DNA of 64,000 nucleotides, from assembly GCF_013366925.1 (NCBI RefSeq), contig NZ_JAALDK010000001.1, positions 4,953,165 through 5,017,164 of the forward strand, written 5' to 3'. The notes beneath the pieces are model-generated. The model was not told the origin of the DNA and ran no database searches. It was given only the letters and a program-made list of their open reading frames with translations. A program made the translations under genes and the position numbers. Shown here piece by piece: positions 241 to 16,717 of this stretch. The DNA is from Paraburkholderia youngii (lineage in GTDB: Bacteria; Pseudomonadota; Gammaproteobacteria; Burkholderiales; Burkholderiaceae). Positions within the stretch are counted from its first letter, which is position 1, and the number at the start of each line of letters is the position of its first letter.

Positions 241-328
241 ACCGAACTTTTGTGATTTACAAAGTATTCCTAAGCACATGGCCGGCTCCAGTTCGATCGA
301 TCAATATCTGATTCTTAAAAATGACGGG

Positions 329-1003
329 CTAGAACACCACCGCACTGCCATCCGGTTCTCGCCGCTGATCCTTAACCGGTGATGTGGCAGTCTCTCCATT
401 GCGGTCCTGCCGCGATAGCTGTCGAATGACAGCTGGGGAAAGGGGGGGGCGAACCGGCGTCGCAGAATCGACCGGCACGACCGGGATAGGGATGATCGCC
501 GGCACGCCAGGCGGCAATGGCAACTGACCCGCCGCGTTGTCCATGACGCGCTGTACATACCCCGTCCGGTAGCCGGTCGAAAAATTGCCGCTCGCGTAGC
601 AGGACAGGCTCGCGCGCAACGCCCCCTGTACATCGGACTGAGAATCGGAATCTGCATGGACCCGCCGGCTCCGCGCCGTCGCGAAGCAGTCTTGAAGGAT
701 CGCGGCGGCCGCCGCCAGGTTGCGGCACGGCTCGAAAGCGTTCTCGGCAGTCAGCCCGTAGTCTGGCCAGTTCGCGCGATTCACCTGGGCGAGTCCGACG
801 CTGAAGTTCCAACCCGTCGTCTCCAGCGCGCGTGCCGCTGCCACCGCTTCGGCGGCATTCGATGGTTGCCGCAGCAACCGGCCATGCACCACGCCGATCG
901 CATAGGGATTGAATCCGGATTCAGTGCGCACGATCGCGGCCATCGTGACCGGCGCGATCTGCGGCGCGCACTGCTGCGCGAGTGCCATGAAGTCAAGGGA
1001 CAT
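329..1003 (-). CDS. virB1: VirB1-type lytic transglycosylase
   Basis: The 224-residue product has the lytic transglycosylase core: a catalytic Glu in the VRTESGFNPYAIGV segment near residue 25, followed by SVGLAQVNRANW near residue 75. Proteins of this kind open the peptidoglycan so the type IV secretion apparatus can be assembled. I chose the ATG at 1003 rather than the upstream in-frame alternative at 1033, because it starts with the normal family N-terminus (MSLDFMALAQQ) and lies 2 bp after the stop of trbM, which suggests translational coupling. No clear signal peptide is present, as is common for some VirB1 proteins. The C-terminal third is low-complexity and proline-rich. Confidence 0.85.
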   Translation of the reverse strand: MSLDFMALAQQCAPQIAPVTMAAIVRTESGFNPYAIGVVHGRLLRQPSNAAEAVAAARALETTGWNFSVGLAQVNRANWPDYGLTAENAFEPCRNLAAAAAILQDCFATARSRRVHADSDSQSDVQGALRASLSCYASGNFSTGYRTGYVQRVMDNAAGQLPLPPGVPAIIPIPVVPVDSATPVRPPLSPAVIRQLSRQDRNGETATSPVKDQRREPDGSAVVF

Positions 1004-1005
1004 GA

Positions 1006-1581
1006 TCAGTTTCCCCCGCCGAAGCGATCCCACTGCTGGTCGATGCGCTGCTGGAAGAGCGCTGCGGACTGCGTCGGGTCATAAGGCGCTTGCGTACTGC
1101 CTGCCCCATAGAATTCAGTGATCGTGGGCCCCTGTCCACCAACGTCCCACCAGACACGTGTATAGAGCTGGTTGTCGAAAGTGACGTTGATGGCGCCCGT
1201 TGCCCGACACAGCAGTTCGCTCTGTTCCGGACCACCCCAAAGCAGCAGGTCTTCGCGACAATAACCGCCGCTCGCGAACGTATTGGTGGCGGACGTACCG
1301 TGCGCCCCGCCTGCACCGAACTCGCACGTCGGAAATGGGTCGCCGTGCCGCAGCGCGCGCCATAGCTTCTCGATCGGCGGCACGCATTCGCCATACTGCT
1401 CGGGACCGCCGGGATTCGATAGGCAGAGCACTACCTGGCAACCCCAGTCGTCCGCATGCGCCACGCCCGGCGTGAAAACCGAGGTGCCGGCGAGCAGTGC
1501 CAGCGCGAGCGACCAGCGCCGCGCAATACCGCGCATCGCGCGCGGTTCACGACACCAGAGAACGAAACGATCCATCTTCAT
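1006..1581 (-). CDS. trbM: TrbM/KikA/MpfK family conjugal transfer protein
   Basis: This 191-residue protein has a signal peptide (hydrophobic segment about residues 23-40, ending VAHADD). It is followed by the family hallmark DDWGCQVVLCLSNPGGPEQY and the CVPPIEKLW segment, which match the TrbM/KikA/MpfK family of IncP-type conjugation systems. It carries several cysteines, as expected for a periplasmic disulfide protein. The ATG at 1581 has an AAGGTGG ribosome binding site. It heads a leftward operon trbM-virB1-virB2. The precise function of TrbM is not settled even in model plasmids; the call is a family call. Confidence 0.8.
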   Translation of the reverse strand: MKMDRFVLWCREPRAMRGIARRWSLALALLAGTSVFTPGVAHADDWGCQVVLCLSNPGGPEQYGECVPPIEKLWRALRHGDPFPTCEFGAGGAHGTSATNTFASGGYCREDLLLWGGPEQSELLCRATGAINVTFDNQLYTRVWWDVGGQGPTITEFYGAGSTQAPYDPTQSAALFQQRIDQQWDRFGGGN

Positions 1582-2463: not shown

Positions 2464-2566
2464 GACTTCCGTCCTCCTGGCTTTGTGCGGATCTGTCCGG
2501 CACAGATCCGATTCAAGCAACAGGGAGCACAGACGGGGAAGTCCGTCTTACCGTCAGGACACCCCG

Positions 2567-3127
2567 TCAGGACCGCGACCGCGAGTATCGGCTGCCAGCA
2601 GTCTCCTTCAGCCAATCAGGTCGGATTGCGGACGCATACGTCTGCGCGCTTCGAGACGCCTCGCCGTCGGGTTGAGCTTTCAGATTCAACCGTTCGTCGA
2701 TCGCCCGCGCTACGACGGACGACTTGGGCGGGTTGTTCTCGTCATAGTCGGACCAGAAAATTTGCATGACATCAAACATTCCGGAAAGAATCTCGGTAAT
2801 AAACGGCAGCCGAACGGTGATCCCGCAAGAATGCTCCGCCTGCTCCTCGCAGGCGCATTGCAACGTCCTCCATGATGGGGCCATCGCACGCAACGACTCG
2901 AGCTCCTGCTCCTGTCGCTCTTCTATCGCATGATGCACGGCCACCGTACGAAGCAACGCCTTTCCCATATCGCTCAGTTGTCGCTCCTTCCCTCTCAATT
3001 GCTCCGTTAGCCGGCGAACGTCAGCCTCGGCCTGCTCGACGCGCCTCTGCAGTGAATTTGGAGCAAGCGCTACGGTGCTATCGTCGCGCGCTCCTGCTGG
3101 CTGACATGGGTTCTCTGAGTGATCCAT
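2567..3127 (-). CDS. Hypothetical protein with N-terminal coiled coil
   Basis: An approximately 186-residue protein from ATG 3127, which has a GAGGA site 6-7 bp upstream; the in-frame ATG at 3139 is less well supported. Residues about 25-85 are strongly charged and heptad-like (coiled coil). The middle has a short Cys cluster (LQCACEEQAEHSC), and the C-terminal part is hydrophilic. I do not recognise a family. It is the first gene of a leftward set with the AlpA gene and the small HTH gene, consistent with an accessory-element cargo or control function. Confidence 0.6.
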   Translation of the reverse strand: MDHSENPCQPAGARDDSTVALAPNSLQRRVEQAEADVRRLTEQLRGKERQLSDMGKALLRTVAVHHAIEERQEQELESLRAMAPSWRTLQCACEEQAEHSCGITVRLPFITEILSGMFDVMQIFWSDYDENNPPKSSVVARAIDERLNLKAQPDGEASRSAQTYASAIRPDWLKETAGSRYSRSRS

Positions 3128-3491
3128 GATCGTCCTCATCGCCTGCAGCGTTCTGCCGCATCAGTTCCCCGTTACTTGCCACAAATCAAACCGGACGGCG
3201 AAATCGATCGTCCAGCCGATCCAAATGTGCAGCACGGTCCCTTAGCGTTGACCTGCAACTCCCGCAATTCCCTCATTCGATACTACAGCGCCCCGTTGGG
3301 GCGGCGTATCCTGAAGTCAGACATGACACTCTGACGGCCGGTCAGTAGTAGAACGATCGTACGAGCTGGCCTGGCAGCACCTGTTGTCGGACGCAGCGCG
3401 GCAAGAAAAAGTCTAGTTCGCTGGCTGAGGGATCGGCACCATACCAAACTACATTGACTTTTAACCGTCAATGTGATACCTGAGGCAAAAC
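3128..3491. other. Divergent intergenic region between the element-control genes and mnmH
   Basis: About 360 bp with no convincing gene. It carries the promoters of two divergent units and, at 3451-3474, a perfect inverted repeat just before mnmH, listed separately. Confidence 0.5.
3451..3474. promoter_or_regulatory. Perfect inverted repeat upstream of mnmH (candidate operator)
   Basis: ACATTGAC (3451-3458) and GTCAATGT (3467-3474) form a perfect 8-bp dyad separated by 8 bp, ending 17 bp before the mnmH start codon. The geometry fits a dimeric repressor site or a hairpin in the 5' leader. No regulator can be assigned from the sequence. Confidence 0.55.
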
Positions 3492-4550
3492 ATGTACGAC
3501 GTGGATGCTTTGAAGAAGTTTGACCTGGTGATTGATGCGAGGAGCCCGCGTGAGTTCGCCGAAGACCATTTGCCAGGCGCGATAAATCTGCCCGTTGTAT
3601 TCGATGATGAGTACGCCGAAGTCGGTACTACGCATCGAACCGATCCTATGCGCGCGTATCAGATCGGCGTCGCCTATTCTTTAAAAAACATTGCGCGGCA
3701 CCTCGAGCTTCCGTATTTTCGGCCAAGTCGAAAAATGTCAATTCTGGTTTATTGCTTCCGGGGTGGGAAACGAAGCAAGCTTTGGGCAGACACCTTAGAA
3801 ACAATTGGCTACAAGGTCGAACGGCTCCCGAAGGGTTGGAAAGGATATCGGAGCTGGGTTCGTGAAACTCTTGGAGAGATCCCTTCCCGCTTGCAGTTCA
3901 ATGTGCTTTCCGGTCCCACAGGATGCGGGAAGACGCGTTTGTTGATTGCTTTGAGAGAGTCTGGTGCACAGATCATCGACCTCGAAGCCCTCGCCTCGCA
4001 CCGAGGATCGATCATTGGGGCAATTCCCGGACGACAACAACCCACTCAGAAGCTATTCGACAGCATGTTGCTTGCCGAGCTTTATCGGCTGGACTCTTCG
4101 AAACGCGTCTGGATTGAAGGCGAGAGCAAACGTATTGGGCAAGTCCAATTGCCTACTGCGCTGTTCGATCGAATGCATGAGGGACGTTTGTTTTCGGTCA
4201 AAACGCCAATGCACGAGCGAATCGAAATGTGGCGTCGCGAGTATCCCCACTTCGAAAAAGACCCTGAGGGTCTAGTCGCCCGCCTAAGCTATCTAAAAGC
4301 CCTCATAAGCGGCGCAACCCTACAAAAATGGGTGTCGCTAGCTGAGCGACATGAAATCGTCGCCTTGTTCGAGAGCATCATGCTCGATTATTATGATCCT
4401 GCATACGCGCGCTCCACGAAAAAAAACTACTCGCGTAGCGGCTGTCCTATAGAAGTCGAACTTGAGACATTAGATTCATCATATCTTGCTACGGTCGCAA
4501 AGCGTTTGATTTCTGAGAGCGAGACGCCGACGTCATTGATGCGTGAGTAA
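3492..4550 (+). CDS. mnmH: tRNA 2-selenouridine synthase (rhodanese plus P-loop)
   Basis: A 352-residue protein, close to the usual family length. An N-terminal rhodanese domain (about 1-125) carries VIDARSPREF and the catalytic-loop Cys88 in YCFRGGKRS. A P-loop domain follows with Walker A GPTGCGKT at about 141-148. MnmH (SelU/YbbB) replaces sulfur by selenium at the wobble 2-thiouridine of certain tRNAs, using selenophosphate made by SelD. No selD lies in the window, so selenophosphate must come from elsewhere, or the enzyme stops at the geranylated intermediate. Base composition is visibly lower in GC than in the core regions, suggesting transfer. Its 3' end overlaps the convergent AlkB-like gene by 18 bp. 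Confidence 0.9.
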   Translation: MYDVDALKKFDLVIDARSPREFAEDHLPGAINLPVVFDDEYAEVGTTHRTDPMRAYQIGVAYSLKNIARHLELPYFRPSRKMSILVYCFRGGKRSKLWADTLETIGYKVERLPKGWKGYRSWVRETLGEIPSRLQFNVLSGPTGCGKTRLLIALRESGAQIIDLEALASHRGSIIGAIPGRQQPTQKLFDSMLLAELYRLDSSKRVWIEGESKRIGQVQLPTALFDRMHEGRLFSVKTPMHERIEMWRREYPHFEKDPEGLVARLSYLKALISGATLQKWVSLAERHEIVALFESIMLDYYDPAYARSTKKNYSRSGCPIEVELETLDSSYLATVAKRLISESETPTSLMRE

Positions 4551-5508
4551 GATCTTTGCGCGTCGATCCATTAGGTAGTACCAAGCCGGCGGAAACAGCG
4601 CTAACCAAAGCATCTGAAAGTAGCCTGCGGGCATAGCGACGCCTTGCGAACTGAGATTCAAATATCTCACCTCACTTTCGCGATGGTGAGCGTTGTGAAA
4701 TCCGTTATTGACAAGCAGACAGTTCGACAGCCAGAAGTCGACGTCCCAAGCTGTTATCGTGGGATGGGAGGAATCCGTGGCGATACCGTAATGCTGGATT
4801 ATACCCCACTGTTTCGACAACAAAGATGCTAACAATGGAATAGCCAATATAGAAGATTGCAACTCGACCTTGCAGAACCGCTGCTATGACCAGTAGAGAG
4901 GAGGAGAAAACTAGATTTCTAAACAAACTCAACGGTACCTTCCCGTCACGATATGACTGCGGAGAGAGTGAAGAGGTAAAGGCAGCCGTGTAGGATCTAC
5001 CGGCATGGCGCCACGCCGACGTTCCCAACGGCGCCGCCGAACCGAACTTCGGATTTCCCACGTGTTGATGATGTAGTTGATGTGCGAATCGATAGTGAGG
5101 ATAGCCGGCGACGGCGAATGCGATGTCACTTGTCTCCCTCCAGAATCTATTCGGTCGATGCGCAAGTTCATGAAGGTGCGCCATCGCGGTCGCGCTGAGT
5201 AATCCGCAAGCTGTCGCAAGTCCGATCAACTCTATCCAAGACGACATGCTTGCGCGCCATGCGCCGACTCCCATCGCGACCATCCACGCGACCGCGAACC
5301 AACACGGCACCTGATCCTCAGTTGTTTTATCGAAGACTTTCCCCGCTCCCGGAGCACCACGACCTATCGCCGCGTCCAGCATAGGAACAAGAAGAAGGAC
5401 GATCATCGCGAACACCCACGGTTGTCCGATAAGGAACAGACCAGCCGCGGCTATCGGCAAAGTTAGTGATAACCAAAATGCGCTATACGAGTTACGCCAG
5501 AAGGTCAT
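4533..5508 (-). pseudogene. AlkB-like membrane di-iron monooxygenase / fatty acid desaturase, frameshifted
   Basis: Two overlapping frames together make one protein of about 325 residues. The upstream part (5508 to about 4803) has several membrane helices and the His boxes HELAH and HQLHHQH. The downstream part (about 4797-4533) has QHYG and HNAHH. In AlkB-family alkane or fatty-acid hydroxylases these boxes bind the di-iron centre. Near 4797-4803 the reverse strand reads TATAATC; removing one A would restore the family motif GYIQHYG. So a single extra base breaks the gene, either a genuine mutation or a sequencing error. The ATG at 5508 overlaps the end of the luxR-type gene by 17 bp, implying coupling. 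Substrate unknown. Confidence 0.75.
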
Positions 5509-6232
5509 TTACCTGAGCGAACTTAACCGCTTCCGAAATATGAGAAACCCCAATCTTGTCTTTTATCTTTTTAAAATTTCCGTAGACCGTCTGAATAGAA
5601 ACATCTAATTCGCGAGCAATATCTTCAGCAGTAAATCCCATCTTCAAGTAGCCCATTACACGAAGATCCATTTCGGTAATTCCATGCGCCTCAACCAGCT
5701 CGCGCTTTGAGACTCGATTGAACCAATCCAGTAGCTCCGAGGCGAGCGCCCTGAAGTACAACCGATGTGCAGCGAGCTTTTTTTCCCCGATTTCCTGGCT
5801 ATCGTCGGAACCGATGTACAGAACGCCCAGACGGTCTGAAACGCTCGTGTGGACGGGAACGACGATTCCACTTCTGAAGCCATGTTCACTCGCGGCTGCA
5901 AGCATTTCACACTGGCCTTGCGTCTCGAGCGCAATCTCCGAACCTGTGATTGGTGCAGTGTTGCTTCGCGCGTACTCCAAAAATGGATCGGTCATATACC
6001 ACTTATTGGTGTTGTACATCTGGCACCATTCGGGGCTGCAGCCGATCAAAAAACGATGCGTAGGACGGGCCGCCGTCGACACTCCGGGGTAAATGGCAAC
6101 GAAGACGTACGACTCTCCGCCCAGTGCGCTGACTATGGCCTTCACGTAATCGGCCAATTCGCAATCGCCGCTGGCGGTGATGAGCCTTTCAAAAAGGACG
6201 CTTAGGTCTGGGGGCGTCAGTTGGGTGGCCAT
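5492..6232 (-). CDS. LuxR-family regulator with autoinducer-binding-like domain (solo)
   Basis: A 246-residue protein. The N-terminal part matches the autoinducer-binding fold, with Trp69, Tyr73, Asp82-Pro83 and Gly122 at positions equivalent to conserved LuxR pocket residues. The second pocket Trp (TraR/LuxR W85 position) appears replaced in the APITGSEI segment. The C-terminal LuxR helix-turn-helix is clear (about 185-240; GFTAEDIARELDVSIQTVYG). There is no luxI homolog in the window, so it is a LuxR solo that may sense a foreign or non-AHL ligand. It overlaps the AlkB-like gene downstream by 17 bp, making that gene the likely target or at least operon partner. Confidence 0.85.
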   Translation of the reverse strand: MATQLTPPDLSVLFERLITASGDCELADYVKAIVSALGGESYVFVAIYPGVSTAARPTHRFLIGCSPEWCQMYNTNKWYMTDPFLEYARSNTAPITGSEIALETQGQCEMLAAASEHGFRSGIVVPVHTSVSDRLGVLYIGSDDSQEIGEKKLAAHRLYFRALASELLDWFNRVSKRELVEAHGITEMDLRVMGYLKMGFTAEDIARELDVSIQTVYGNFKKIKDKIGVSHISEAVKFAQVNDLLA

Positions 6233-6266
6233 CTCTTCCGCCTCTATCCCTTCCCGATCTCTCCAG

Positions 6267-6524
6267 CTATCCGAGCGTGCGACTTTCTAGAAGTTGACGC
6301 CGAACCTCGTAATACAACGGGGCGAGTTCTTTCGAATAGTTATCTGCAACGGCGAATCGTTGGACATCGTACGGAACCGTTATGGGAAGCACCTGGACGA
6401 ATGTCGATTGATCTCTTTCAATCAGTCGTCGCTCCAGAACGAACCCCCGGGGAGCCCTAAAAAGACTGAGCACAACCCGCTCTCCGCCGATAAGGAGCCC
6501 GCGCTCAAAAATAAGGCTCTTCAT
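6267..6524 (-). CDS. Hypothetical small protein overlapping the zinc-ribbon gene
   Basis: About 85 residues from ATG 6524, which is preceded by a GGAG site at 7 bp; a second in-frame ATG is at 6527. The sequence is basic and amphipathic (RAPRGFVLERRLIERDQSTFVQ is typical) with no recognised domain. It overlaps the 3' end of the zinc-ribbon gene by 20 bp in another frame and precedes luxR by 34 bp, so all four leftward genes probably form an operon. The longer in-frame extension (to 6632) would overlap the upstream gene deeply and is less likely. Confidence 0.5.
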   Translation of the reverse strand: MKSLIFERGLLIGGERVVLSLFRAPRGFVLERRLIERDQSTFVQVLPITVPYDVQRFAVADNYSKELAPLYYEVRRQLLESRTLG

Positions 6525-6780
6525 CATCGACTCCGTCACGGAGATTGCGATGACCACAGGAGGAGCAGGCAATCCCTTCAGCATCGATTTCTGACGTACT
6601 AGAGATAAAGTCCTCGGACCCACACGCATCACACTCCATGATCAAACCGTTAAACACGGCGCCGCAGCACTGACAAGTGAGGCGGTGAACCTCACCTGCG
6701 GCGAGGATTTCCCAGCAGTCTTCCATCGGAACACTGCATTTGGGACAGAGAAAACCCAGTTCGCATGTAGCGCTCGCCAT
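6505..6780 (-). CDS. Multi-cysteine zinc-ribbon protein
   Basis: A 91-residue protein with four CxxC-type knuckles at about residues 12-15, 36-39, 50-53 and 72-75 (CPKC, CQCC, CDAC, CSSCGH), enough for two zinc ribbons. It ends in an acidic tail. I chose the ATG at 6780; a TTG start at 6819 is possible. Zinc ribbons of this kind bind nucleic acid or protein partners, but no named family is recognised. It is the first gene of the leftward cluster zinc ribbon - small protein - LuxR solo - AlkB-like enzyme. Confidence 0.6.
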   Translation of the reverse strand: MASATCELGFLCPKCSVPMEDCWEILAAGEVHRLTCQCCGAVFNGLIMECDACGSEDFISSTSEIDAEGIACSSCGHRNLRDGVDDEEPYF

Positions 6781-7213
6781 GACTGAAAGCCACCCGAAAG
6801 GACAAGCCGCATCAAACAATACTTCAGCTTAGTTTGCTCGGTTTCATCTGCCCAATAGCGGGAGCCAATAGTGTATCGACTCCTCATAATGCGAATTTCT
6901 TGAACGATGGCGTGGTCTGGCTTAATGGTTGCTTGAGCGGGTGCGGACGACTCAGCAAAACCTGATTGTCATCAATTGGGGACGACTGCAGTTTGTACGA
7001 GGCGCAATGTCCCAGAGCGAGCCGCCAAAAGGCCGTCTTAGGTCACTGGTTTCGCTCTTCGGAGAATCTAGGGTAGCGTCGTCCCGAGCGAATATTGGTC
7101 CCACGAGAGCCCCAACGCGCCGCTAACGTCCAAGTTTTTTGCGTATACAGGTACGTATACCGCCGTTCTTTTAACCATGTTTCTTGTTATTTTTCAATCG
7201 GTTATGTGTTTAA

Positions 7214-7235
7214 TTCGAGTCCTCTCCTGGCACCA
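7214..7235 (+). other. tRNA 3'-end-like segment, probable att site of the element
   Basis: TTCGAGT (T-loop-like) followed by CCTCTCCTGGCACCA resembles the T arm, acceptor strand and CCA end of a tRNA gene. Nothing upstream folds as the rest of a tRNA, and the spacing from T-loop to CCA is one base short. It is therefore a fragment, as left by site-specific integration into a tRNA gene. The terminator directly downstream would be the original terminator of that tRNA gene. The call is an inference from the pattern and the position between accessory and core genes. Confidence 0.5.
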
Positions 7236-7269
7236 CAAGTTGTTCCGGCGTAAGCCGAAGTAGTTCGAG

Positions 7270-7305
7270 AAACCCCGTAAGATCAAAGTCTTACGGGGTT
7301 TTTTG
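7270..7305 (+). terminator. Strong rho-independent terminator
   Basis: AACCCCGTAAGA (7271-7282) and TCTTACGGGGTT (7289-7300) form a perfect 12-bp stem with a six-base loop, followed by a T-run (TTTT). It lies 35 bp after the tRNA-like fragment. It cannot serve the left-running genes, so it probably terminated the original tRNA transcript. Confidence 0.85.
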
Positions 7306-7401
7306 TTATTCACAGCTGGGCTTCCGGAGCGCCAGGCCACGCTCTCAGCCCCACCTGCATTGCGGCACATGCGCCGATCTCGCCACGAAAGCCCGTCAAC
7401 A

Positions 7402-8259
7402 TCAATCCCTCCGCATGCGAACAACCAACGCGAGCAAGCGGGCGCGCATTTCATCGGCCGGCAAGTGCGTGGGCCAGCCGTGACCAGGAAGCAACCAGTC
7501 GAAGCGATACGCGGCTAGCTTGCCAAGCGATTCGGTGAGCTCAGACCATGAATACCAGCACGCGTCCCTGAACGCGACGAGGTCCCCCACGCGCGGGCTC
7601 CACGCGAGCGAATCACCCGAGAACAACACGCTGTCGTCGAGCAGGTACACGACGCTGCCGCGCGTGTGCCCGGGGACAGGGATCGCGCTTACGCCGACCG
7701 CAATGTCCGTTGCCGATCCATCGTCGAGCAGGTCCGTTGCATAAGGCGCGGCCGACATGTCTTCCCGGTGAATCCAGACGCGCGCGCCGAAATGACGAGC
7801 GTATTTATCTGCGTCCGCGACGTCGTCACGATGCGATAGAAGGATGTGCGCGATGCCACCGTTCTCATCAAACCATTTCACGAGTTCCGCCGCGTAGCGC
7901 GGTGAGTCGATCATCAGATTGCCGTCCGGACGCCTCGCAAAGTAAGAGTGCGCGCCAAACGACGACCGCGCGTTAAATCCGCAGCGCCATACAGCCGACG
8001 TGATCGGCTGTGGAAAGATCGCGGCACCCGGACGAGGCTGCGTCGTTTCACTCCGTACCGACGCCGTAGGACACACGAGCACCGCACGCCATGCGTCGAC
8101 GTGCTCTTCGGGCGTAACGGGCTGCCGCAAGAAGACACTCTTGTCGTTTCGTTCGACAATCAGCCCCGGCGCGACGTGACGCGATGCACCGCAATTGATG
8201 CACGCTGTGTCGATGTACCACTCGCCTGGGACGGAATCGGCGTTGCGTGTCGGCTTCAT
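7402..8259 (-). CDS. MBL-fold metallo-hydrolase with N-terminal ferredoxin-like domain
   Basis: A 285-residue protein from ATG 8259, with AGGAG upstream; the longer in-frame start at 8376 overlaps the neighbouring gene and is not needed. Residues 15-70 form a ferredoxin-like domain, WYIDTACINCGASRHVAPG and later VCPTAS. The rest is a metallo-beta-lactamase fold with LLSHRDDVADAD, PVPGHTRGS and LLPGHG metal-site motifs. The usual four Fe-S cysteines are reduced to three: the third position is Ser26 in INCGASR. The substrate is unknown. It lies 28 bp downstream of the TIR-STAND gene, same strand. Confidence 0.85.
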   Translation of the reverse strand: MKPTRNADSVPGEWYIDTACINCGASRHVAPGLIVERNDKSVFLRQPVTPEEHVDAWRAVLVCPTASVRSETTQPRPGAAIFPQPITSAVWRCGFNARSSFGAHSYFARRPDGNLMIDSPRYAAELVKWFDENGGIAHILLSHRDDVADADKYARHFGARVWIHREDMSAAPYATDLLDDGSATDIAVGVSAIPVPGHTRGSVVYLLDDSVLFSGDSLAWSPRVGDLVAFRDACWYSWSELTESLGKLAAYRFDWLLPGHGWPTHLPADEMRARLLALVVRMRRD

Positions 8260-8287
8260 TCGATGCTCCTGTCGTCCGGTCGGCAAA

Positions 8288-11200
8288 TCAGGATCCACAT
8301 ACGTTTTCGTCCCGGCGCCCGCGTACGAGAGAAAGGGCGGCTCCATCACCGGTTGTGAGCAAGTTTGCTCCCACAAGCCTTTCCTTGCACACCGCCATCG
8401 CCAGGCTCCGCCCTCGATTCTGCATAAGCCATCGGATAGGCCACACCCGCGCGGTCTGATCCGCGGACGCGGTCACCACCCGCTGGCCGTCCGGGCTGAA
8501 GGCAGCGGAGCTCACGGCTCCCAGGTGCCCGGTGAGTTGCGCGATCACCAGGCCAGTCGCCGCGTCCCATACTCGCGCGTTCTGATCCGCGGACGCGGTC
8601 ACTACCCGCTGGCCGTCCGGGCTGAAGGCGGCGGAACCCACTGCCCCCTGATGCCCGCTGAACTGGCCGATCTGTTTGCCCGTCGCCGCGTCCCACACCC
8701 GCGCGGTCCCATCCGCGGACGCGGTCACCACGCGCCGTCCGTCCGGGCTGAAGGCGGCGGAAAAAACGGTGCCGCGATGGCCGCTGAGCACCACGATCTG
8801 TTTGCCGGTGGCCGCGTCCCACACCCGCGCGGTCCCATCCCAGGACGCAGTCACCACCCGCTGGCCGTCCGGACTATAGGCGACGGAATCAACCGGCTCC
8901 TGATGCCCGCTGAGCAGCAAGATCTGTTTGCCCGTGGCCGCGTCCCACACTCGCGCGGTCCCATCCGCGGACGCCGTCGCCACCCGCTGGCCGTCCGGGC
9001 TGAAGGCGGCGGAAAAAACTGCCCCGTGATGCCCGCTAAGCTGGGCGATCTGTTTGCCCGCGGCCGCATCCCACAGCCACGCGGTCTGATCCGCGGACGC
9101 GGTCACTATCCGCCGGCCGTCAGGGCTGAACGCAGCGGAGTCAACCCACCCCTGATGCCCGCTGAGCAGCGCAATCTGCTTGCCCGTGGCGACGTCCCAC
9201 ACCCGCGCAGTCCTGTCACGGGACGCCGTCACCACCCGCTGACCGTCCGGGCTGAAGGCGGCGAAAACGACTGGCTCCTGATGTCCGCTGAGCAGCAAGA
9301 TCCCCTTCCCCGCGTCCCACGCGCGCGCTGTCCTGTCACGGGATGCAGTCAACACCCGCTGACCGTCCAGGCTGAAGACGGCGACGTTCACCGGCCCCTG
9401 ATGTCCGATGAGCTGCACGATCGTCTGTCCGGTCGCCGCATCCCACACCCGCGCAGTCTTGTCATCGGAGGCGGTCACCACACGCAGGCCGTCCGGGCTA
9501 AAGGCGGCGGAGCTGACCGGTCCCTGATGTCCGGTGAGCTGCGTGATCACGTGGCCGGTCGCCGCATCCCACACCCGCGCGGTTTTGTCATCGGACGCGG
9601 TCACCACGCGCCGGCCGTCCGGGCTGAAGGCCGCGGAGAAAACCGGTCCCTGATGCCCGGCGAGCTGCGCGATCACGTGGCCGGTCGCCGCATCCCAAAC
9701 CCGCGCGGTTTTGTCATCGGACGCGGTCACCACGCGCCGGCCATCCGCGCTGAAGGCCGCGGAGCTCACCAGTTCCCGATGCCCGCTGAGCTGCGCGATC
9801 ACCTGGCCGGTCGCCGCATCCCAAACCCGCGCAGTCCTGTCCGCGGACGCGGTCACCACGCGCCGGCCGTCCGGGCTGAAGGCCGCGGAGAAAACCGGCC
9901 CCTGATGCCCGTTGAGCTGCACGATCTGTTTGCCCGCAGCAGCGTCCCACACCCGCGCGGTCCTGTCCGCCGAGGCGGTCACCACGCGCCGGCCGTCCGG
10001 GCCGAAGGCGGCGGAATAAACCAGATCCCGATGCCCGCTGAACTGCACGATCTGTTTGCCCGTAGCCGCGTCCCACACTCGCGCGGTTCTGTCCGCCGAG
10101 GCGGTCACCACGCGCCGGCCGTCCGGGCCGAAGGCGGCGGAATAAATCAGCCCCTGATGTCCGCTGAGCTGCACGATCTGTTTGCCGGTAGCCGCGTCCC
10201 ATACCCGCGCGGTCCCATCCCAGGACGCGGTCACCACCCGCTTACCGTCGGGGCTGAATACGGCGGAATCGACCGCATCCTGATGCCCGCCGAGCAACGC
10301 AATTTGCATTGATGCCTGCGCGCCGCGCATGAGCTCCAGCTCTGCGTCAACCGATCCCGGCGAGAGCCAACTCTTGCGCACCGCCAGTATCGCGAAGCGC
10401 ATTGCGCGATCGTAGATTCCCGCGTCGTTCGCCAGCGTCGCGGCCGACGCCAACACAACGGAAGTCTGGCGTGCGACCGTCCGGGTCTGATGAATGATCC
10501 ACCCCCCTGTCGCAATCAGAATGAACGCGATTACGCCCATCAGTACCTGGATGAGTCGCTGCGTGGACGCTGTCCGTGTGTGAGCGATTCGCTGCAACTG
10601 CGACTCGCGCTCCTCGCGCCCGCGGCAAGCCCGCAAATAGGAGAGGTCATCCGTGCCCAGCATTCGTTCGAAGTCCGAACGCTGCAGGATCGCTTCCGCG
10701 CTGGTCAGCCGCTCGCCGGCGTGGGCCAGCCAGGCCGTCCCCTGCCCGTGCTTTTGCCACTCCTGCGCCGCTCGCTGCACGGTTGCGACTGTCTTGAGCG
10801 CATCCGCGTCCGCGTCGAGCCAGGCGGCAAGGACAGGCCACTGCCGTAACAACGCCTCGTGCGCGATTTCAATGATGGTGGTTTCCTCATTGCTAGCTTC
10901 GGCCTTGCGCCGGTCTTGCAATAGCAGTCGATACCGGATGAGACGCTTCAGGACGGCATGGGCGGATTCGGGAAGCTCATCCCAGCGTGCCCCGCGGCGC
11001 TTGCGCTGTTGCGTCAGCGGTTCGACGTGCGCGAGCCATGGGATCAAGCCCTCGCGCAGCAGGCGCTCGCGCGCGGCCTTATCTGCTGGAACGGCGGGCT
11101 CCCGTCCGGGATCGGCAAATGCCGATTCGACCGCGGCCTCGATGGAACCGCGCATACCCCCGATCGCCTGATAGTCGGCTACGCTGAAGTTTCCGGTGGC

Positions 11201-12622
11201 GCCATAGTCGGTAAATAGCCGCTCGAGCGTAAAGGCCAGCAAGGGCAATGCGTCTGCCCCTTCAGTATCCCGAAGAAGCCGCTCGGTCAGCGCTGGCTCG
11301 ATCGTCAGCTTCCGCCCGGCGGCGGTAGCCCGCGCGGCAGGACCCTCGATCACCGCCTTGAATTCCGCGCGCTCCAATGGAGGGAGACTGAAGACACGCG
11401 GTGGTACGCCGCGCAGCGTTGGCGCGCTCTGCAATTGCTCGTAAGCGTCTGTGCGGATCGCCACGACCGCAAGCGCACGCTGCCGTTTGCCGATCGTCTG
11501 CATTCCCGCGTGTTCCGCCGTGGCGAGCGTCCTCGCAAGCAGGGACAGGAAGTGCGAAGACTCCTCTTCGCCTTCCGCGCTGAATAATTCCTCGCCCTGG
11601 TCGACGCAGACAAGAACGGTCGGCACAACGGCATCTGACGCGAGCCGCGAGCAGTGCAGCGTTTGAAGCTGGCCAAGCAATTGCTCAAATCCATCAGGAG
11701 TCTGAACTGCCTGGCGGATCTCGGCGCGCGTCCTGAGTACCGCGAGTTCCAGAAAGGCCAGCTCGATACTGACGACGAGTCCGGTGGCGCCAGTAACAAC
11801 AGCCCGCTCCGGACGGATCACTGGAAGCGGCAAAAAGTTTCGGTCATCGCGCTTCAGGCGCGGCCACAGGCCGGCCCGCACAAAGGACGACTTGCCCGCT
11901 CCGGATGCGCCGAGGATGACCAACATCCGCTCGATCCCCTGCTTGCGGACGCTGCGTAGCGTATCGAGCCCGCGCAATACCGCCGTGTCCCGGCCAAAGA
12001 ACACGGCCGCATCCTCGGCCTCCAGCGCTCTCAGTCCCGGATAAGGGGGGCGCTCGGCATCGTTAGCCGGCGGCCACGGAAAGCCCGACGGAGCGGAGCC
12101 GGCTCGCCGCAGCCCAAGCTCGAGCCGGGCAAGCCCCGCTTTGGCGAAAGAGACTTCAGTTGCCGAAACGAGCGGGTCATGCGAGACCCGGAAGCTCTGG
12201 CGTTGGGTCCCGGCGGTGAGGTCACAGACCTGCCATTGCGCCGTCAATTCTTTCGGCAAGGCGTCGATCGGCGTCGCCTCGACGAGCACACCGAAGATTG
12301 TCTTGCCCAGGAATCTGGCAAAGGTTAACTGAGCCAGGCACGAGCGAGAGTCGCACCATGCGGGCGAAATCAGAAACAGCACGGCCTCGCAGCGGTCGGC
12401 CGCAGACTTGAGCGCTTCCTGCCAGCGTTCCCCAGCAGCCAACCCCTCGACCGGCTCGAGGTCCAGGAAGTAATCATCCCAGCCGTTATCGGCAAGCCAG
12501 TGTCCGATCGCGAGCGCGAGAGCGTTATTCGCGCTGGCGTGGCTGATGAAAATCGTGGGCACCGCGCTGCGAACTTCAGTCCCGCAGTTGACTGCACTCG
12601 CAAAGGACACCATCCACCTCAT
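8288..12622 (-). CDS. TIR-STAND ATPase-WD40 repeat protein (candidate NLR-like immune protein)
   Basis: A 1444-residue protein. A TIR-like domain occupies about 20-135 (PTIFISHAS start, ISPAWCDSRSC). A STAND-type NTPase follows at about 195-600, with Walker A GASGAGKSS at 238-246 and Walker B VLVCVDQGEE at 335-344. A single hydrophobic segment (about 690-709) could span the membrane. Then come 15 WD40 repeats of 42 residues (about 773-1400) and a conserved-looking tail. In the TIR, the position usually held by catalytic Glu (CxxE) reads CLAQ (Gln98), so NADase activity is doubtful. Proteins with this architecture are known or suspected in antiphage immunity and signalling. The start is uncertain (12622 or 12613). 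Confidence 0.9.
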   Translation of the reverse strand: MRWMVSFASAVNCGTEVRSAVPTIFISHASANNALALAIGHWLADNGWDDYFLDLEPVEGLAAGERWQEALKSAADRCEAVLFLISPAWCDSRSCLAQLTFARFLGKTIFGVLVEATPIDALPKELTAQWQVCDLTAGTQRQSFRVSHDPLVSATEVSFAKAGLARLELGLRRAGSAPSGFPWPPANDAERPPYPGLRALEAEDAAVFFGRDTAVLRGLDTLRSVRKQGIERMLVILGASGAGKSSFVRAGLWPRLKRDDRNFLPLPVIRPERAVVTGATGLVVSIELAFLELAVLRTRAEIRQAVQTPDGFEQLLGQLQTLHCSRLASDAVVPTVLVCVDQGEELFSAEGEEESSHFLSLLARTLATAEHAGMQTIGKRQRALAVVAIRTDAYEQLQSAPTLRGVPPRVFSLPPLERAEFKAVIEGPAARATAAGRKLTIEPALTERLLRDTEGADALPLLAFTLERLFTDYGATGNFSVADYQAIGGMRGSIEAAVESAFADPGREPAVPADKAARERLLREGLIPWLAHVEPLTQQRKRRGARWDELPESAHAVLKRLIRYRLLLQDRRKAEASNEETTIIEIAHEALLRQWPVLAAWLDADADALKTVATVQRAAQEWQKHGQGTAWLAHAGERLTSAEAILQRSDFERMLGTDDLSYLRACRGREERESQLQRIAHTRTASTQRLIQVLMGVIAFILIATGGWIIHQTRTVARQTSVVLASAATLANDAGIYDRAMRFAILAVRKSWLSPGSVDAELELMRGAQASMQIALLGGHQDAVDSAVFSPDGKRVVTASWDGTARVWDAATGKQIVQLSGHQGLIYSAAFGPDGRRVVTASADRTARVWDAATGKQIVQFSGHRDLVYSAAFGPDGRRVVTASADRTARVWDAAAGKQIVQLNGHQGPVFSAAFSPDGRRVVTASADRTARVWDAATGQVIAQLSGHRELVSSAAFSADGRRVVTASDDKTARVWDAATGHVIAQLAGHQGPVFSAAFSPDGRRVVTASDDKTARVWDAATGHVITQLTGHQGPVSSAAFSPDGLRVVTASDDKTARVWDAATGQTIVQLIGHQGPVNVAVFSLDGQRVLTASRDRTARAWDAGKGILLLSGHQEPVVFAAFSPDGQRVVTASRDRTARVWDVATGKQIALLSGHQGWVDSAAFSPDGRRIVTASADQTAWLWDAAAGKQIAQLSGHHGAVFSAAFSPDGQRVATASADGTARVWDAATGKQILLLSGHQEPVDSVAYSPDGQRVVTASWDGTARVWDAATGKQIVVLSGHRGTVFSAAFSPDGRRVVTASADGTARVWDAATGKQIGQFSGHQGAVGSAAFSPDGQRVVTASADQNARVWDAATGLVIAQLTGHLGAVSSAAFSPDGQRVVTASADQTARVWPIRWLMQNRGRSLAMAVCKERLVGANLLTTGDGAALSLVRGRRDENVCGS
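8430..10306 (-). repeat. Fifteen tandem WD40-coding repeats (126-bp unit)
   Basis: The DNA coding for the WD40 array is a run of near-identical 126-bp units with a GHQGxVxSAAFSPDGxRVVTAS core; one unit (ILLLSGHQ preceded by a short AGKG linker) is two codons shorter. The high nucleotide identity between units also produces a long chance open frame on the opposite strand. Such arrays are prone to unequal recombination, so the repeat number may differ between strains or be misassembled. Confidence 0.9.
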
Positions 12623-12669
12623 GTGTTTGAGTCTGGCATCCCGCGCGCTGAATTGATTGCCTCAATGCT

Positions 12670-13536
12670 TTATAGCTCGCGCCTGGCGGACACGATGAGA
12701 GCGTCCAGCTTGTCCGCGGTCCTGCATTCGTCAAGCGGTGTGTAGACGGTGAGCTTGCGATCGGAGCCGTCCAGCAGCGCGAAACTGGTGTATTCGAAGA
12801 CCATCAGGCCTTTTCGCGGATGCCTGATGCGCTTGATATTCGATAACGGATTGAGCACCTCGTGCCTGCGCCACCACGCATTGAATTCGTCGCTCCTGTG
12901 TCGCAGCGTCGATATCAGCCGTTCAAAATCAGGATCGCCCACATAGCGCGCACTGTCGTTACGGAACATCGCAAGGGACGCACGCGCCACTTCCTCCCAG
13001 TCAACGAGCAAACGGCGGTGCCGCGCATTCGCGAAAACCATGAACATCAGATTGCGCTCATCCACCGAAAGCTGCCCGTAGTCACCGAATACCAAAGTGG
13101 CGGCCCGATTCCAGCCCAGGATATCCCAGCGACGGCCAGTGACGTAAGCGGGCTGGCCCGACAGGCTGGCAAGCATCCGTTGCACCGGCTCCTCGAGCTT
13201 TTCCGGATTCGTCGACTGGAGTTCCGGCGACGGACGATCGCTCAATACGAACAGATGCCGCCGCTCAACGGCGTCCAGTCGCAACGCATCCGCGATTGCG
13301 ATCAGCACCTCTTCGGACGCGCGGACGTCGCGCCCCTGTTCGAGCCAGGTGTACCACGTGATACCGACGTCCGCGAGCATCGCGACTTCCTCGCGGCGCA
13401 GCCCCGGCGTGCGTCGTCGAAAACCGTCCGGCAATCCGACCGCGGCCGGACTCAGGTGCTCGCGCCGCGACCTCAGGAATGCGCCTAGCTCACCACGGCG
13501 TCGTTCGGCGGCGAGGGTTCTGACGTTCATCGTCAT
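12670..13536 (-). CDS. XRE-family regulator with MmyB-like ligand-binding domain
   Basis: A 288-residue protein. The N-terminal helix-turn-helix (about 15-80) has the LGAFLRSRREHLSP and PGLRREEVAMLADVGITWYTWLEQGR segments typical of this family. The C-terminal half (about 115-285) fits the MmyB-like fold, with WNRAATLVFGDY and ERNLMFMVF. Members regulate adjacent short-chain dehydrogenases in many actinobacteria and Burkholderiales. It is transcribed divergently from the SDR gene at 13633, with 96 bp between the starts, so autoregulation and control of the SDR pair are likely. Either of two nearby ATGs (13536, 13530) could be the start. Confidence 0.9.
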   Translation of the reverse strand: MTMNVRTLAAERRRGELGAFLRSRREHLSPAAVGLPDGFRRRTPGLRREEVAMLADVGITWYTWLEQGRDVRASEEVLIAIADALRLDAVERRHLFVLSDRPSPELQSTNPEKLEEPVQRMLASLSGQPAYVTGRRWDILGWNRAATLVFGDYGQLSVDERNLMFMVFANARHRRLLVDWEEVARASLAMFRNDSARYVGDPDFERLISTLRHRSDEFNAWWRRHEVLNPLSNIKRIRHPRKGLMVFEYTSFALLDGSDRKLTVYTPLDECRTADKLDALIVSARREL

Positions 13537-13632
13537 CGTGGTAGCTCCCTATACCAGTATCGATCCAGCACTGTTTGTCGCGCGGCAAAGCGCACAGCAT
13601 GAAGACGAAACCAACTTCCAGTCTATTCAATC

Positions 13633-14460
13633 ATGAACATGACGAACAAGCTTGTGCTGGTTACCGGCTCCACCGACGGACTCGGACGCTGCGTCGCGAA
13701 TCGGCTGGCAGCCCAGGGCGCGCACGTGCTCGTTCACGGGCGAAACATGGAACGGGGCGAATCCGTCGTTCGCGAGATAGCGGGTGCGGGAGGCAAAGCG
13801 ACTTTTTATCCGGCTGATCTGTCTACGTTCGCGGAAGTTCAATCGCTGGCAAGCGCGATCGGGCGCGCGCACGATCGACTCGACCTGCTTATCAACAACG
13901 CCGGCATCGGGACCGGTCCGCGTGGCTCGACCAGGCAAGTCACGGCGGATGGAATCGAATTGCGGTTCGCGGTGAACTACCTCGCGGGCTTCGCCCTGAC
14001 GAGGCTTCTGCTGCCTCTTTTGCTGACGGGCTCGAGATCGCGGATTGTCAATGTTGCTTCCGTGGGACAACGCCCGATCGATTTCGACGACGTGATGTTG
14101 AGCCACGGCTATAGCGGTACCGCGGCCTATTGCCAGAGCAAGCTCGCGCAAATCATGTTCACGTTCGATCTGGCCGACGAACTGGCGCAGACCGGCGTGA
14201 CGGCGAACTGTCTGCATCCGGCCACATACATGGACACAACCATGGTGAGGAATGGGGGAATCACGCCTCTGAGCACGGTCGAGGAAGGTGCTGACGCAGT
14301 TCTTCATCTTGCGGCCAGCACCGCAATGGAAGGCCGTACCGGCCTCTATTTCGACGGCACAGGGCTCGCCAGAGCTCATCCCGACGCCTACAACCCTGCG
14401 CTTCGCAAGCGACTGCGTCAGCTCAGCTTTCAGTTGACGGACCCGTCGCTGGCACATTGA
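13633..14460 (+). CDS. Short-chain dehydrogenase/reductase
   Basis: A 275-residue Rossmann-fold oxidoreductase. The nucleotide-binding motif is VLVTGSTDGLGRCV (about 8-21) and NNAG is at about 89. The active site has Ser in VNVASVGQ and YCQSK (YxxxK) near 167-171. The size and the Cterm extension match the retinol-dehydrogenase-like or light-dependent-protochlorophyllide-reductase-like group of SDRs; the substrate is unknown. It is divergent from the XRE regulator and followed 74 bp later by a second SDR on the same strand. Confidence 0.9.
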   Translation: MNMTNKLVLVTGSTDGLGRCVANRLAAQGAHVLVHGRNMERGESVVREIAGAGGKATFYPADLSTFAEVQSLASAIGRAHDRLDLLINNAGIGTGPRGSTRQVTADGIELRFAVNYLAGFALTRLLLPLLLTGSRSRIVNVASVGQRPIDFDDVMLSHGYSGTAAYCQSKLAQIMFTFDLADELAQTGVTANCLHPATYMDTTMVRNGGITPLSTVEEGADAVLHLAASTAMEGRTGLYFDGTGLARAHPDAYNPALRKRLRQLSFQLTDPSLAH

Positions 14461-14534
14461 CACATCGAACTTCGATGTCGGTCCGGCCCGGGTTCCGGAA
14501 ACCCGGCATTTTTCAAAGAGCGGAAACTTCAACC

Positions 14535-15281
14535 ATGTCAGATCATGTCTTCATTGTCGGCGGTTCTTCCGGGATTGGCTTCGCTACAGCGAGCCGGCTA
14601 CTGGAGCGGAGATACGCGGTTACGATTGCCGGGCGAGATTCGGCGAAACTGGCCAAAGCGAAGGCCGCGTTGCGCGGCGCTGCAAATACGGTGAGATTCG
14701 ATGCATCCGATGCATCGACCATCGCCGGCACGTTTGCCGAGATTGGCGCAATCGATCACCTGGTTCTCGCGCTCGGCAGTGGCAAGGGGGGAGGCCCGTT
14801 TTCAGCCGTCAGTCTCGATGCGGTGCGTAGGGGATTCGATGAGAAAGTGTTTCCTCATTTCGCGTGTGCCCAGGCGGCCCTTGCGTCGATTGCGAAAACC
14901 GGAAGCATCACTTTTCTCTCTGCCGTATCGGCACACTCGGCCATGCCCGGAACAGCGGGCCTCGGCGCAGCGAACGCGGCGATTGCGGCGATCGTGCCGA
15001 TCCTGGCGGCAGAGCTACGCCCGTTGCGGATTAACGCAGTTTCCCCTGGCGTCATTGATACGCCGTGGTGGGACTTTCTCTCTGAGCAAGATAAGGAGTC
15101 CGCTTTTGCCGGTTATGCGGCGAGAACGCCGGTAGGACGAATTGGCCAGCCTGACGACATCGCCATGGCGATTGAATTTCTGATTTCGAACTCCTTCATG
15201 TCTGGGCAAACCATCATATGCGACGGTGGAATTGGTCTGGATTCGGCTGGCCAGACCGTCCCGCTGACCGAGCCTCGCTGA
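14535..15281 (+). CDS. SDR-fold protein lacking the usual catalytic Tyr/Lys
   Basis: A 248-residue SDR from ATG 14535; the frame extends upstream to 14457, but MSDHVFIVGGSSGIG is the natural start. The glycine-rich motif GGSSGIG and the C-terminal SPGVIDTPWW and DGG segments are normal. Where YxxxK should follow the Ser of FLSAVSAHS there is GTAGLGAANAAI, so the catalytic Tyr and Lys are missing. A subgroup of SDRs with AANAAI or AVNAAI at this place exists, so the loss is probably old rather than recent. It is paired with the SDR upstream. Function unknown; likely an altered chemistry or a binding role. Confidence 0.8.
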   Translation: MSDHVFIVGGSSGIGFATASRLLERRYAVTIAGRDSAKLAKAKAALRGAANTVRFDASDASTIAGTFAEIGAIDHLVLALGSGKGGGPFSAVSLDAVRRGFDEKVFPHFACAQAALASIAKTGSITFLSAVSAHSAMPGTAGLGAANAAIAAIVPILAAELRPLRINAVSPGVIDTPWWDFLSEQDKESAFAGYAARTPVGRIGQPDDIAMAIEFLISNSFMSGQTIICDGGIGLDSAGQTVPLTEPR

Positions 15282-15290
15282 CGATCTGCA

Positions 15291-15680
15291 TCAGGTGTCA
15301 CCGGTGGGAACGATTCCCGCCGCCTCGACCATCAGGATCACCGTTTTCACAGGCGCTCGAGGGCGATGCAGCAGGCCTTTATGCACGACAAACGCTTGTC
15401 CCGGGCCCAGATCGACGACCTGGTCCTCGAGGTCGATCAGGAAGCGTCCGCTAACCACATAAAAGAATTCGTCCTGCGCGTCATGTTTGTGCCAATGATA
15501 TTCGCCCTGCACGACACCCAGCCGAACTACCGACTGGTCCACCTGACACAGCGTCTGGTTGTACCAGGGATGGCCGTTTGCCGCCACGAGGGCGGGCACA
15601 TCGATGACTTCGCCGAAGGAGTAGAGGACGTTAAGGTGGGTCGAGTACGGAAAGGAATCGGTGCTCACATCAGTCTCCAT
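15291..15680 (-). CDS. Cupin-domain protein
   Basis: A 129-residue single cupin. The metal-binding motif 1 is YHWHKHDAQDEFFYVVSG (about 62-79) and motif 2 is GPGQAFVVHKGLLHRPRA (about 93-110). The His-x-His and Glu ligands are present, suggesting one metal site. Small cupins of this kind are often sugar- or aromatic-acid-related isomerases or dioxygenase-like proteins, but no specific activity is indicated. Convergent with the SDR gene: the two stop codons are 10 bp apart. Confidence 0.85.
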   Translation of the reverse strand: METDVSTDSFPYSTHLNVLYSFGEVIDVPALVAANGHPWYNQTLCQVDQSVVRLGVVQGEYHWHKHDAQDEFFYVVSGRFLIDLEDQVVDLGPGQAFVVHKGLLHRPRAPVKTVILMVEAAGIVPTGDT

Positions 15681-15751
15681 GAACGTCAGTTCGTGTCGAA
15701 TATGCGAGCCACTGTAGGCCTAGGCAGTTCTGTTGGTCTTGTACCGGACCG

Positions 15752-16594
15752 TCAATCTTTGGTACGGGAGCGATCTTCGAGCAACTGCGCGCGGTACGCG
15801 CCCGGTGTCAGCCCCATCCTGCGCCGAAACACGCGTGTAAAGTGGCTTTGGTCGGCGAAACCGGCGGCCTGAGCAATCGCTTTGAGCGAATGGCGTCCAC
15901 CGGTCAATTGAGCGCATGCAAAATCGAGCCGAAGCTGGCGCACGTAATCTCCGACAGTACAGCCATAGTGCTTGCGGAATTCCCGCGCGAGGTGGTCGGC
16001 GCAAACATGGCTGTCCGAAGCGATTTCGTCCAACGTCAACGTCTCACGAAAACGATCGTGCAGTAATGCTTCCACGCGAGCGAGCCATCGACGTGAACCG
16101 TCAACCGTTGCCGCGCGCGGGACGGCCCGCTCGCACGCCGCAAGAAGCTCGAGTACCAGCCCTTCGACTGCTAGCGATGTAGCCGAATCCTGCTCACGGC
16201 ACTCGCGGACGAGACGGCGCATGAACGACAACGGAGCTCCACTGGCGAAGTCATCCGGGCGATCGAGGACTTGGGTCCGACCGCCCAGCCGCTCTAGCCA
16301 CGAAGACGAAAATTCGACATGGAGCGCCTTGCCGCCGGCCCCGTACCAGCAATTTGCGTGCGGTACGGCTGCGGGGAAAAGCGTCAGTGACATCGGCCCA
16401 TCTTCGCCACCGCGTGACGGCCAGGTTCGTGTACCGCGGCCGTCCAGCACGAAACAGAAAAACGGATTCACATGTTCGTGCTGCGGAATGATGAGATCCG
16501 TTGCGAATTGGGTCTCCACGACCGAGATGCCATCACCCCTGTATTGCAGGGTGGTAGCGCCGAAGTAGTCGCCCGGCTCAAGTACCCGTAGCAT
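15752..16594 (-). CDS. AraC-family transcriptional regulator
   Basis: A 280-residue protein with an N-terminal cupin-like arabinose-binding domain (about 1-90; PQHEHVNPFFCFVLDGRG). The C-terminal double helix-turn-helix spans about 180-270: LTLDEIASDSHVCADHLAREFRKHYGCTVGDYVRQLRL, then LKAIAQAAGFADQSHFTRVFRRRMG, with the usual ending PGAYR. It sits between the cupin gene and the pqqD gene, all leftward. The regulon cannot be told from the sequence; the adjacent cupin gene is the nearest candidate. Confidence 0.9.
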   Translation of the reverse strand: MLRVLEPGDYFGATTLQYRGDGISVVETQFATDLIIPQHEHVNPFFCFVLDGRGTRTWPSRGGEDGPMSLTLFPAAVPHANCWYGAGGKALHVEFSSSWLERLGGRTQVLDRPDDFASGAPLSFMRRLVRECREQDSATSLAVEGLVLELLAACERAVPRAATVDGSRRWLARVEALLHDRFRETLTLDEIASDSHVCADHLAREFRKHYGCTVGDYVRQLRLDFACAQLTGGRHSLKAIAQAAGFADQSHFTRVFRRRMGLTPGAYRAQLLEDRSRTKD

Positions 16595-16717
16595 GGGATT
16601 GCTCCCAAAGAGACGTTGCAGTCGATATTACACACTTGTCGGCCCTGCGAGTCAGCTCCTGCCACGATGTCAACGGCATCGGATCAGCGGGCAACGAGCA
16701 CAAAGTCCTGGGGCTGG

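Follow-up and report, generated by a model that had tools for sequence, protein, structure and literature searches.

A TIR-nSTAND1-WD40 protein of Paraburkholderia youngii without the catalytic TIR glutamate: a candidate membrane-anchored receptor

One gene of Paraburkholderia youngii encodes, in a single polypeptide, a TIR domain, an nSTAND1 NTPase, a predicted membrane span and fifteen WD40 repeats, and it can be read with moderate confidence as a membrane-anchored STAND receptor whose dead TIR serves as a scaffold, recruiter or regulator rather than as an NAD cutter. Its domains, the loss of the catalytic glutamate in a small clade, the continuing constraint and its accessory status are considered established. 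The gene is located in a 64,000-nucleotide stretch of DNA, called here the window, of a genome of 9.49 Mb in 4 contigs (G000), and the encoded features are listed below.

8288..12622, minus strand: open reading frame TIR-nSTAND1-TM-WD40, 1444 aa, stop-free internally
12209..12553, minus strand: TIR domain (TIR_2, PF13676, by Pfam), residues 24-138
12329..12331, minus strand: codon 98, CAG, encoding Gln where the catalytic Glu is expected, motif SCLAQ
12311..12343, minus strand: alpha-C helix, residues 94-104, a cluster of changed family-conserved columns
10742..12046, minus strand: nSTAND1 NTPase (PF20703, E 4e-73), residues 193-627
11888..11911, minus strand: Walker A motif GASGAGKS, residues 238-245
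11588..11617, minus strand: Walker B region motif VLVCVDQGEE, residues 336-345
10490..10546, minus strand: predicted transmembrane helix, residues 693-711, Kyte-Doolittle 2.15, N-in/C-out by family charge bias
9305..10318, minus strand: first WD40 propeller, 8 blades, residues about 769-1106, from the model, matching 8-bladed Tako8
8426..9304, minus strand: second WD40 propeller, 7 blades, residues about 1107-1399, from the model, matching 7-bladed WRAP-T, also PkwA and WDR5

The gene, its domains and the altered TIR site

The frame of 1444 codons is not a product of chance, since the P. atlantica ortholog (L003) retains the same frame, stop-free, at 88% identity over 1423 codons. The homologs have their first residue at position 21 of this frame; the codon there is GTG in the window and ATG in P. 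atlantica, so 12562 may be the native start rather than 12622. Among named proteins the closest come from Paraburkholderia sp. JPY418, with 96% identity over residues 1-700, and from P. atlantica, with 88%, and a query with residues 1-700 gave 2338 matches. The initial annotation had described one polypeptide with a TIR-like N-terminus, a STAND NTPase with intact Walker motifs, a transmembrane segment at about 690-709 and 15 WD40 repeats, and each element was recovered. The reading frame and Pfam confirm the layout; TIR_2 is returned above its curated cut-off (55.7 bits versus 28; E 8.9e-15 with residues 1-185 scanned alone) and a TIR fold is predicted; PF20703 scores 247.7 bits against a cut-off of 27.1 and both Walker motifs are found; hydropathy puts a TM-like segment at 693-711; 15 WD40 stretches are found by Pfam, as are 15 spaced repeats. 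This architecture is already known, bacterial TIR-nSTAND1-WD40 STAND proteins carrying these three domains in identical order. The nSTAND1 clade was named in a paper whose accessible portion mentions FGS fusions, not WD40 (PMC8195603). Besides FGE and WD40, the TIR-nSTAND1 front was also seen fused to trypsin, patatin, histidine kinase/receiver or CHASE2 (P0016, P0042, P0106, P0153).

The window protein differs from these relatives at the catalytic position. Gln98 (CLAQ) had been proposed to stand in place of the CxxE glutamate, and the codon CAG and the homolog alignment agree with it; the homologs, whose state the initial annotation suggested checking, carry Glu98 in 169 of the 171 listed, these being best-scoring matches and not a random sample. 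Gln98 also occurs in P0002 and P0003, which are clusters of 39 and 20 member sequences. The Gln98 proteins are 88-96% identical to the window protein over residues 1-700, with Glu98 relatives at 80%, and a relative in another Paraburkholderia genome (G101), 81% identical, has GAG, Glu, as codon 98. In alignments with the NADase SpbK, Gln98 falls on the glutamate inferred to be Glu192 and Ser94 on Tyr188, both of which are given among the modelled NAD contacts in the accessible portion of the SpbK paper (PMC12847820). Changed family-conserved columns are concentrated around this site: 6 of 10 in residues 94-104 versus 4 of 57 elsewhere in residues 20-140 (Fisher P 3.5e-4). Ser94 by itself is no marker of a dead site, as Trp94 is absent in 12 of the 171 listed homologs and is replaced, among relatives that all keep Glu98, by Ser (P0004), Arg (P0005) or Tyr (P0006). 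Ala29 is present in 14 of the same 171, and Cys95, Asp54, His28 and Ser27 are retained in the window TIR.

A catalytic TIR NADase is expected to carry the conserved alpha-C glutamate, and Gln98 stands there instead. Given this replacement, the earlier suggestion that the protein may act independently of NAD cleavage is preferred. The TIR might still be an enzyme if another acidic residue or another chemistry substituted for Glu98, and the four retained residues just named speak for it, as do the differences between Gln98 species, which fall on 4 of 66 family-conserved TIR columns versus 9 of 53 others (raw counts); a plant TIR review, however, in its accessible portion makes the glutamate a requirement for both NADase activity and 2',3'-cNMP synthesis (PMC9153377), and a surviving enzyme is judged improbable. 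An active TIR partner in trans was not seen, no second TIR protein being found in the genome by the PF13676 or PF01582 profiles.

Constraint on the gene and its damage in sister species

Between the window gene and its P. atlantica ortholog, both with Gln98, dN/dS by the NG86 method is 0.257 for TIR (bootstrap range 0.10-0.56), 0.298 for nSTAND1, 0.295 for WD40 and 0.309 for the whole gene, and relaxed selection on TIR is not seen in this comparison. If Gln98 had a single origin, these differences and those in the column counts given above followed it, so that the TIR is not drifting freely.

The opposite explanation would be decay, with TIR activity lost by drift and the gene departing as in sister species. 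The gene is damaged or lost in sister Paraburkholderia species too, as the TM-WD40 remnants and the stop found there show. With about 9 kb upstream covered, tblastn of residues 21-720 gives only 688-719 in P. podalyriae (L004) and 676-720 in P. panacisoli (L008); P. tuberum (L005) retains only 655-719 (1.35 kb upstream covered, to a contig end), P. ultramafica (L007) retains 542-720 with one stop, and Trinickia mobilis (L013) is without about 227-635 in a draft with Ns. Against decay of the window gene stand its 1444 open codons, the dN/dS of 0.31 for the gene and 0.26 for TIR between two Gln98 species, and the 39 and 20 sequences represented by P0002 and P0003. Decay is regarded as unlikely.

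In the DNA covered for four of these species a TM-WD40 open frame without TIR and most of nSTAND1 was observed (L004 8779-11286, L005 1200-3824, L007 9163-11454, L008 8983-11316), and a similar new stretch directly before the TM is common to L004, L005 and L007. In Trinickia mobilis (L013 573-1364) the TIR is apparently fused to TM-WD40 with nSTAND1 absent, which in a draft with Ns is possibly an assembly fault.

The membrane segment and the WD40 sensor

One hydrophobic span (Kyte-Doolittle 2.15, a hydropathy prediction) is present between STAND and sensor. With TM-like defined as a hydrophobic 19-mer of Kyte-Doolittle at least 1.6 after the STAND domain, such a segment was found in 132 of 147 scorable proteins (of 172 best-scoring, window protein included) and in 89 of 102 scored members of a smaller homolog set of 121; a second one within 120 aa was found in only 2 of the 132. 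According to the positive-inside rule the positively charged flank of a span is the cytoplasmic side. Lysine plus arginine within 15 residues was higher on the N side than on the C side in 124 proteins, lower in 2 and tied in 6 (n=132). In 87 non-redundant members the counts were 83, 1 and 3, and 74, 5 and 8 with 8-residue flanks; the control, the best hydrophobic windows within residues 200-620 of the same 87, gave 34, 40 and 13. By tail, the bias was 75:0:2 in WD-rich proteins and 49:2:4 in others. The window protein's own bias is weak (3 versus 2 K/R within 20 residues), and a basic linker helix could contribute to the family charge signal. There is no cysteine in WD40 residues 779-1396, and 44 of 77 WD-rich tails have at most three.

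From the family-wide bias, weak as it is in the window protein, the TIR-STAND part is predicted to be cytoplasmic and the WD40 sensor periplasmic. The idea of a membrane effector put forward in the initial annotation is thus not favoured, the TM resembling a receptor anchor with WD40 outside by this charge bias. In Toll-like receptors the sensor, made of LRRs, is outside and the TIR inside, with one membrane span. The predicted arrangement is nearer to these than to a cytosolic NLR, although here the domain order is reversed, a STAND NTPase intervenes and WD40 replaces LRR. Apaf-1 and TEP1 also combine a STAND NTPase with WD40, and TEP1 has in addition a TIR-like domain, which is active, unlike the presumably dead one here (accessible portion of PMC13174449). 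Apaf-1 is cytosolic, and neither of the two is known to have a TM. Planctomycetota kinase-TM-WD40 proteins share a cytoplasmic output, a single TM and WD40 mostly predicted to be periplasmic, but their output is a kinase and they have no STAND (accessible portion of PMC11032199).

A cytosolic NLR-like receptor, with the helix buried or membrane-inserting upon activation only, is rather doubtful. Apart from the example of Apaf-1, it is favoured by prediction of the segment through hydropathy alone and by the fungal HET-D/E proteins, intracellular receptors with WD40 sensors (accessible portion of PMC12222747); it is opposed by the 83:1:3 charge bias, the rarity of second segments, the cysteine-free residues 779-1396 and the kinases of like TM-WD40 layout. 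The membrane-anchored topology is kept as the preferred prediction.

The repeats start at residues 779-1365 with a 42-aa spacing except one of 40, and the structure model (pLDDT 83, pTM 0.59, 9 sequences) has 60 strands in 15 blades, with the 8/7 propeller split coinciding with the sole 40-aa repeat (1073-1112). The 14 stretches of 42 aa, a set that omits the 40-aa repeat and whose last member extends into the tail, have a mean pairwise identity of 0.73 in amino acids (minimum 0.55) and 0.77 in nucleotides. Prokaryotic WD40 proteins of high internal repetition, with hotspot sites that vary, are already known, and the accessible portion of Hu 2017 defines the Highly-Repetitive class by an internal repeat identity of at least 0.7 by the authors' procedure (PMC5587647); the value of 0.73 is our own pairwise calculation. 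By span, the array comprises 15 repeats here, in P0002 and in P0003, and 16 in P0004, P0005, P0006 and P0008.

Variable repeat columns are 3, 4, 5, 7, 23 and 25, and also 16, 36, 37, 39, 40 and 42. The first six are spaced as positions 10, 11, 12, 14, 30 and 32 of the fungal proteins, the register being inferred from spacing; these and position 39 were singled out for high dN/dS in HET-D/E (accessible portion of PMC12222747), so 6 of the 7 are variable here, position 39 (column 32 here) being the exception. The likeness to these Podospora anserina (HNWD) NLRs extends to highly similar WD40 repeats in likely two propellers, whereas they have a HET effector, another NTPase, an intracellular location, a variable position 39 and repeat reshuffling among strains (same source and portion); the comparisons made here are between species. 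In every one of the 15 repeats the model places five of the six columns in loops; column 7 falls in a strand. Between repeats (columns 1-30), dN/dS is 0.6 at the six columns versus 0.11 at others, which is elevated but not above 1. Between species the values for the six columns and the others are 0.43 versus 0.27 (window and P. atlantica), 0.50 versus 0.24 (window and G101) and 1.07 versus 0.31 (P. atlantica and G101). The excess of differences at variable sites rises with ortholog distance: counted at 90 variable and 528 other WD40 sites against the window protein, none is seen in P0002 (JPY418; 2 versus 14), followed by 16 versus 50 in P0003, 25 versus 62 in P0004, 33 versus 61 in P0005 and 66 versus 103 in P0006 (P. 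terrae).

Genomic setting and proposed role

The surroundings of the gene include the following features.

7402..8259, minus strand: MBL neighbour, Fer4_13 plus metallo-beta-lactamase-fold protein (Pfam)
12670..13536, minus strand: HTH_31 plus MLTR_LBD regulator (Pfam)
329..1033, minus strand: lytic transglycosylase (SLT), on the right-hand side of the conjugation genes found left of the window
G000:C1:4937261-4952762 (L139 4062-19563): conjugation gene run, ending at the window's left edge

The gene is accessory in Paraburkholderia as judged by genome searches, in which 7 of up to 29 candidates were scored per genome. A full-length TIR-STAND match (at least 670 of 710 residues) was found in 4 of 144 genomes (G000, G010, G101, G036), and 20 further ones gave partial or weak matches only. 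In PLSDB 6 records match and none covers 80% of the query, so plasmid-borne copies are set aside at that coverage. The MBL hydrolase, placed by the initial annotation 28 bp downstream, lies there only if translation begins with the ATG at 8259; its longest reading frame (TTG, 8376) overlaps the 3' end of the gene. Its suggested partnership is rejected on distribution: among 144 Paraburkholderia genomes, 25 carry orthologs of at least 83%, and only 2 of these 25 have a full-length TIR-STAND match. Matches of at least 87% to the HTH_31/MLTR_LBD regulator occur only in G000, G010 and G112 among the matches listed. An autoinducer-binding LuxR-type regulator gene was also observed at 5492-6232 of the window.

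The conjugation run comprises relaxase, LPD7 protein, PriCT-2/Toprim primase, T4CP, TrbI, CagX, VirB8, TrbL, TrbE and SLT; its homologs of relaxase, primase, T4CP and VirB4, 6, 8, 9 and 10 are situated some 9-24 kb to the left of the gene. P. atlantica aligns colinearly with window positions 1-16637, at 92%, and the alignment breaks off at 16637. A comparison of the break near 16637 with 60 kb leftward gave short matches only as candidate element ends (best 20 bases at 95%), and one has to go about 120 kb left to reach a tyrosine-integrase match that passes the family cut-off. Of 59 genomes searched, 5 others carry TrbI homologs (68-74%), none of the 5 with a full-length TIR-STAND match. The run and the shared stretch are possibly an ICE or integrated element, but we do not claim an ICE. 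The G036 homolog (1726 aa, WC-x-x-E kept) adjoins a patatin phospholipase, a TPR-S protein and a phage integrase (L142 6148-9325, 17313-18032), possibly a defence cluster. Given this neighbourhood and the conjugation genes here, homologs are not confined to housekeeping loci. Such confinement, or an N-terminal domain without a TIR profile match, is what the initial annotation had named as refuting its reading, and neither outcome was obtained, since the profile does find TIR.

No clear match to a known antiphage system model was found in PADLOC-DB 2023, where the window protein has weak partial matches only (mad3 E 7.6e-4, Aga_TIR 1.4e-3, ThsB 4.4e-3). At 1e-10 PADLOC gives no match for any of 10 flanking proteins (4 from the G101 flank and 6 from L139, left of the window), and a defence island is rejected for these flanks; three of the G101 flank proteins are by Pfam two metabolic enzymes and a DUF3300 protein. 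Of the window genes, the window protein and the MBL were run through PADLOC and 27 others through Pfam, belonging to metabolic, regulatory, replication and transport families, with one SLT and several unmatched.

An immune role is held to be likely. Signalling for symbiosis or stress would suit the metabolic, regulatory or unmatched window genes and the four G101-homolog neighbours, none of which matches PADLOC; it fits poorly with the patchy distribution in Paraburkholderia, the nearby conjugation genes, the patatin/TPR-S/integrase genes beside the G036 homolog and the variable sensor face, and is thought improbable.

For the receptor proposed here, the periplasmic double WD40 propeller (8+7 blades) would bind a variable protein ligand via one face, upon which the nSTAND1 NTPase would oligomerise on the cytoplasmic side, as in other STAND proteins, and cluster the TIR domains. 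With the NADase glutamate lost in this Paraburkholderia lineage, the clustered Gln98 TIR should nucleate or recruit another effector, or regulate, instead of cleaving NAD. Domains, NTPase motifs, glutamate loss, constraint and variable face positions come from the sequence, fold and topology are predictions, and we infer ligand binding, oligomerisation, immune role and scaffold output. A scaffold or regulatory TIR would resemble that of the plant sensor TNL RRS1 (RRS1-RPS4), a TIR-NTPase receptor that is likewise intact apart from the missing catalytic Glu; there, however, a catalytic partner exists (accessible portion of PMC11298796), whereas no second PF13676 or PF01582 TIR was seen in G000.

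Tentatively, the protein may belong to a class of one-span bacterial proteins of Toll-like receptor topology, in which a rapidly varying periplasmic WD40 (or FGE) sensor signals through STAND to a cytoplasmic TIR, the TIR of the Gln98 clade having become a conserved pseudoenzyme whose signal comes from assembly only. Two points are new as far as limited searches show: a clade in which the dead TIR is conserved, and a topology signal found throughout the family. Among the matches listed, titles and abstract openings of CC-licensed papers neither present any TIR-nSTAND1-WD40 protein as an antiphage gene that has been tested nor name a bacterial TIR pseudoenzyme, though such reports may exist elsewhere.

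In bacteria, TIR domains are generally taken to be enzymes that act on NAD. A receptor left intact, with a TIR under constraint and without its glutamate, is a natural separation-of-function case, Gln98 proteins standing beside Glu98 relatives, and the lineage offers a natural test of whether a bacterial TIR can function without NAD cutting. The parts of the protein are of the same kinds as those of animal, plant and fungal immune sensors. If the predicted topology is true, a large family would monitor the periplasm and not the cytoplasm, and its candidate ligands would be different ones.
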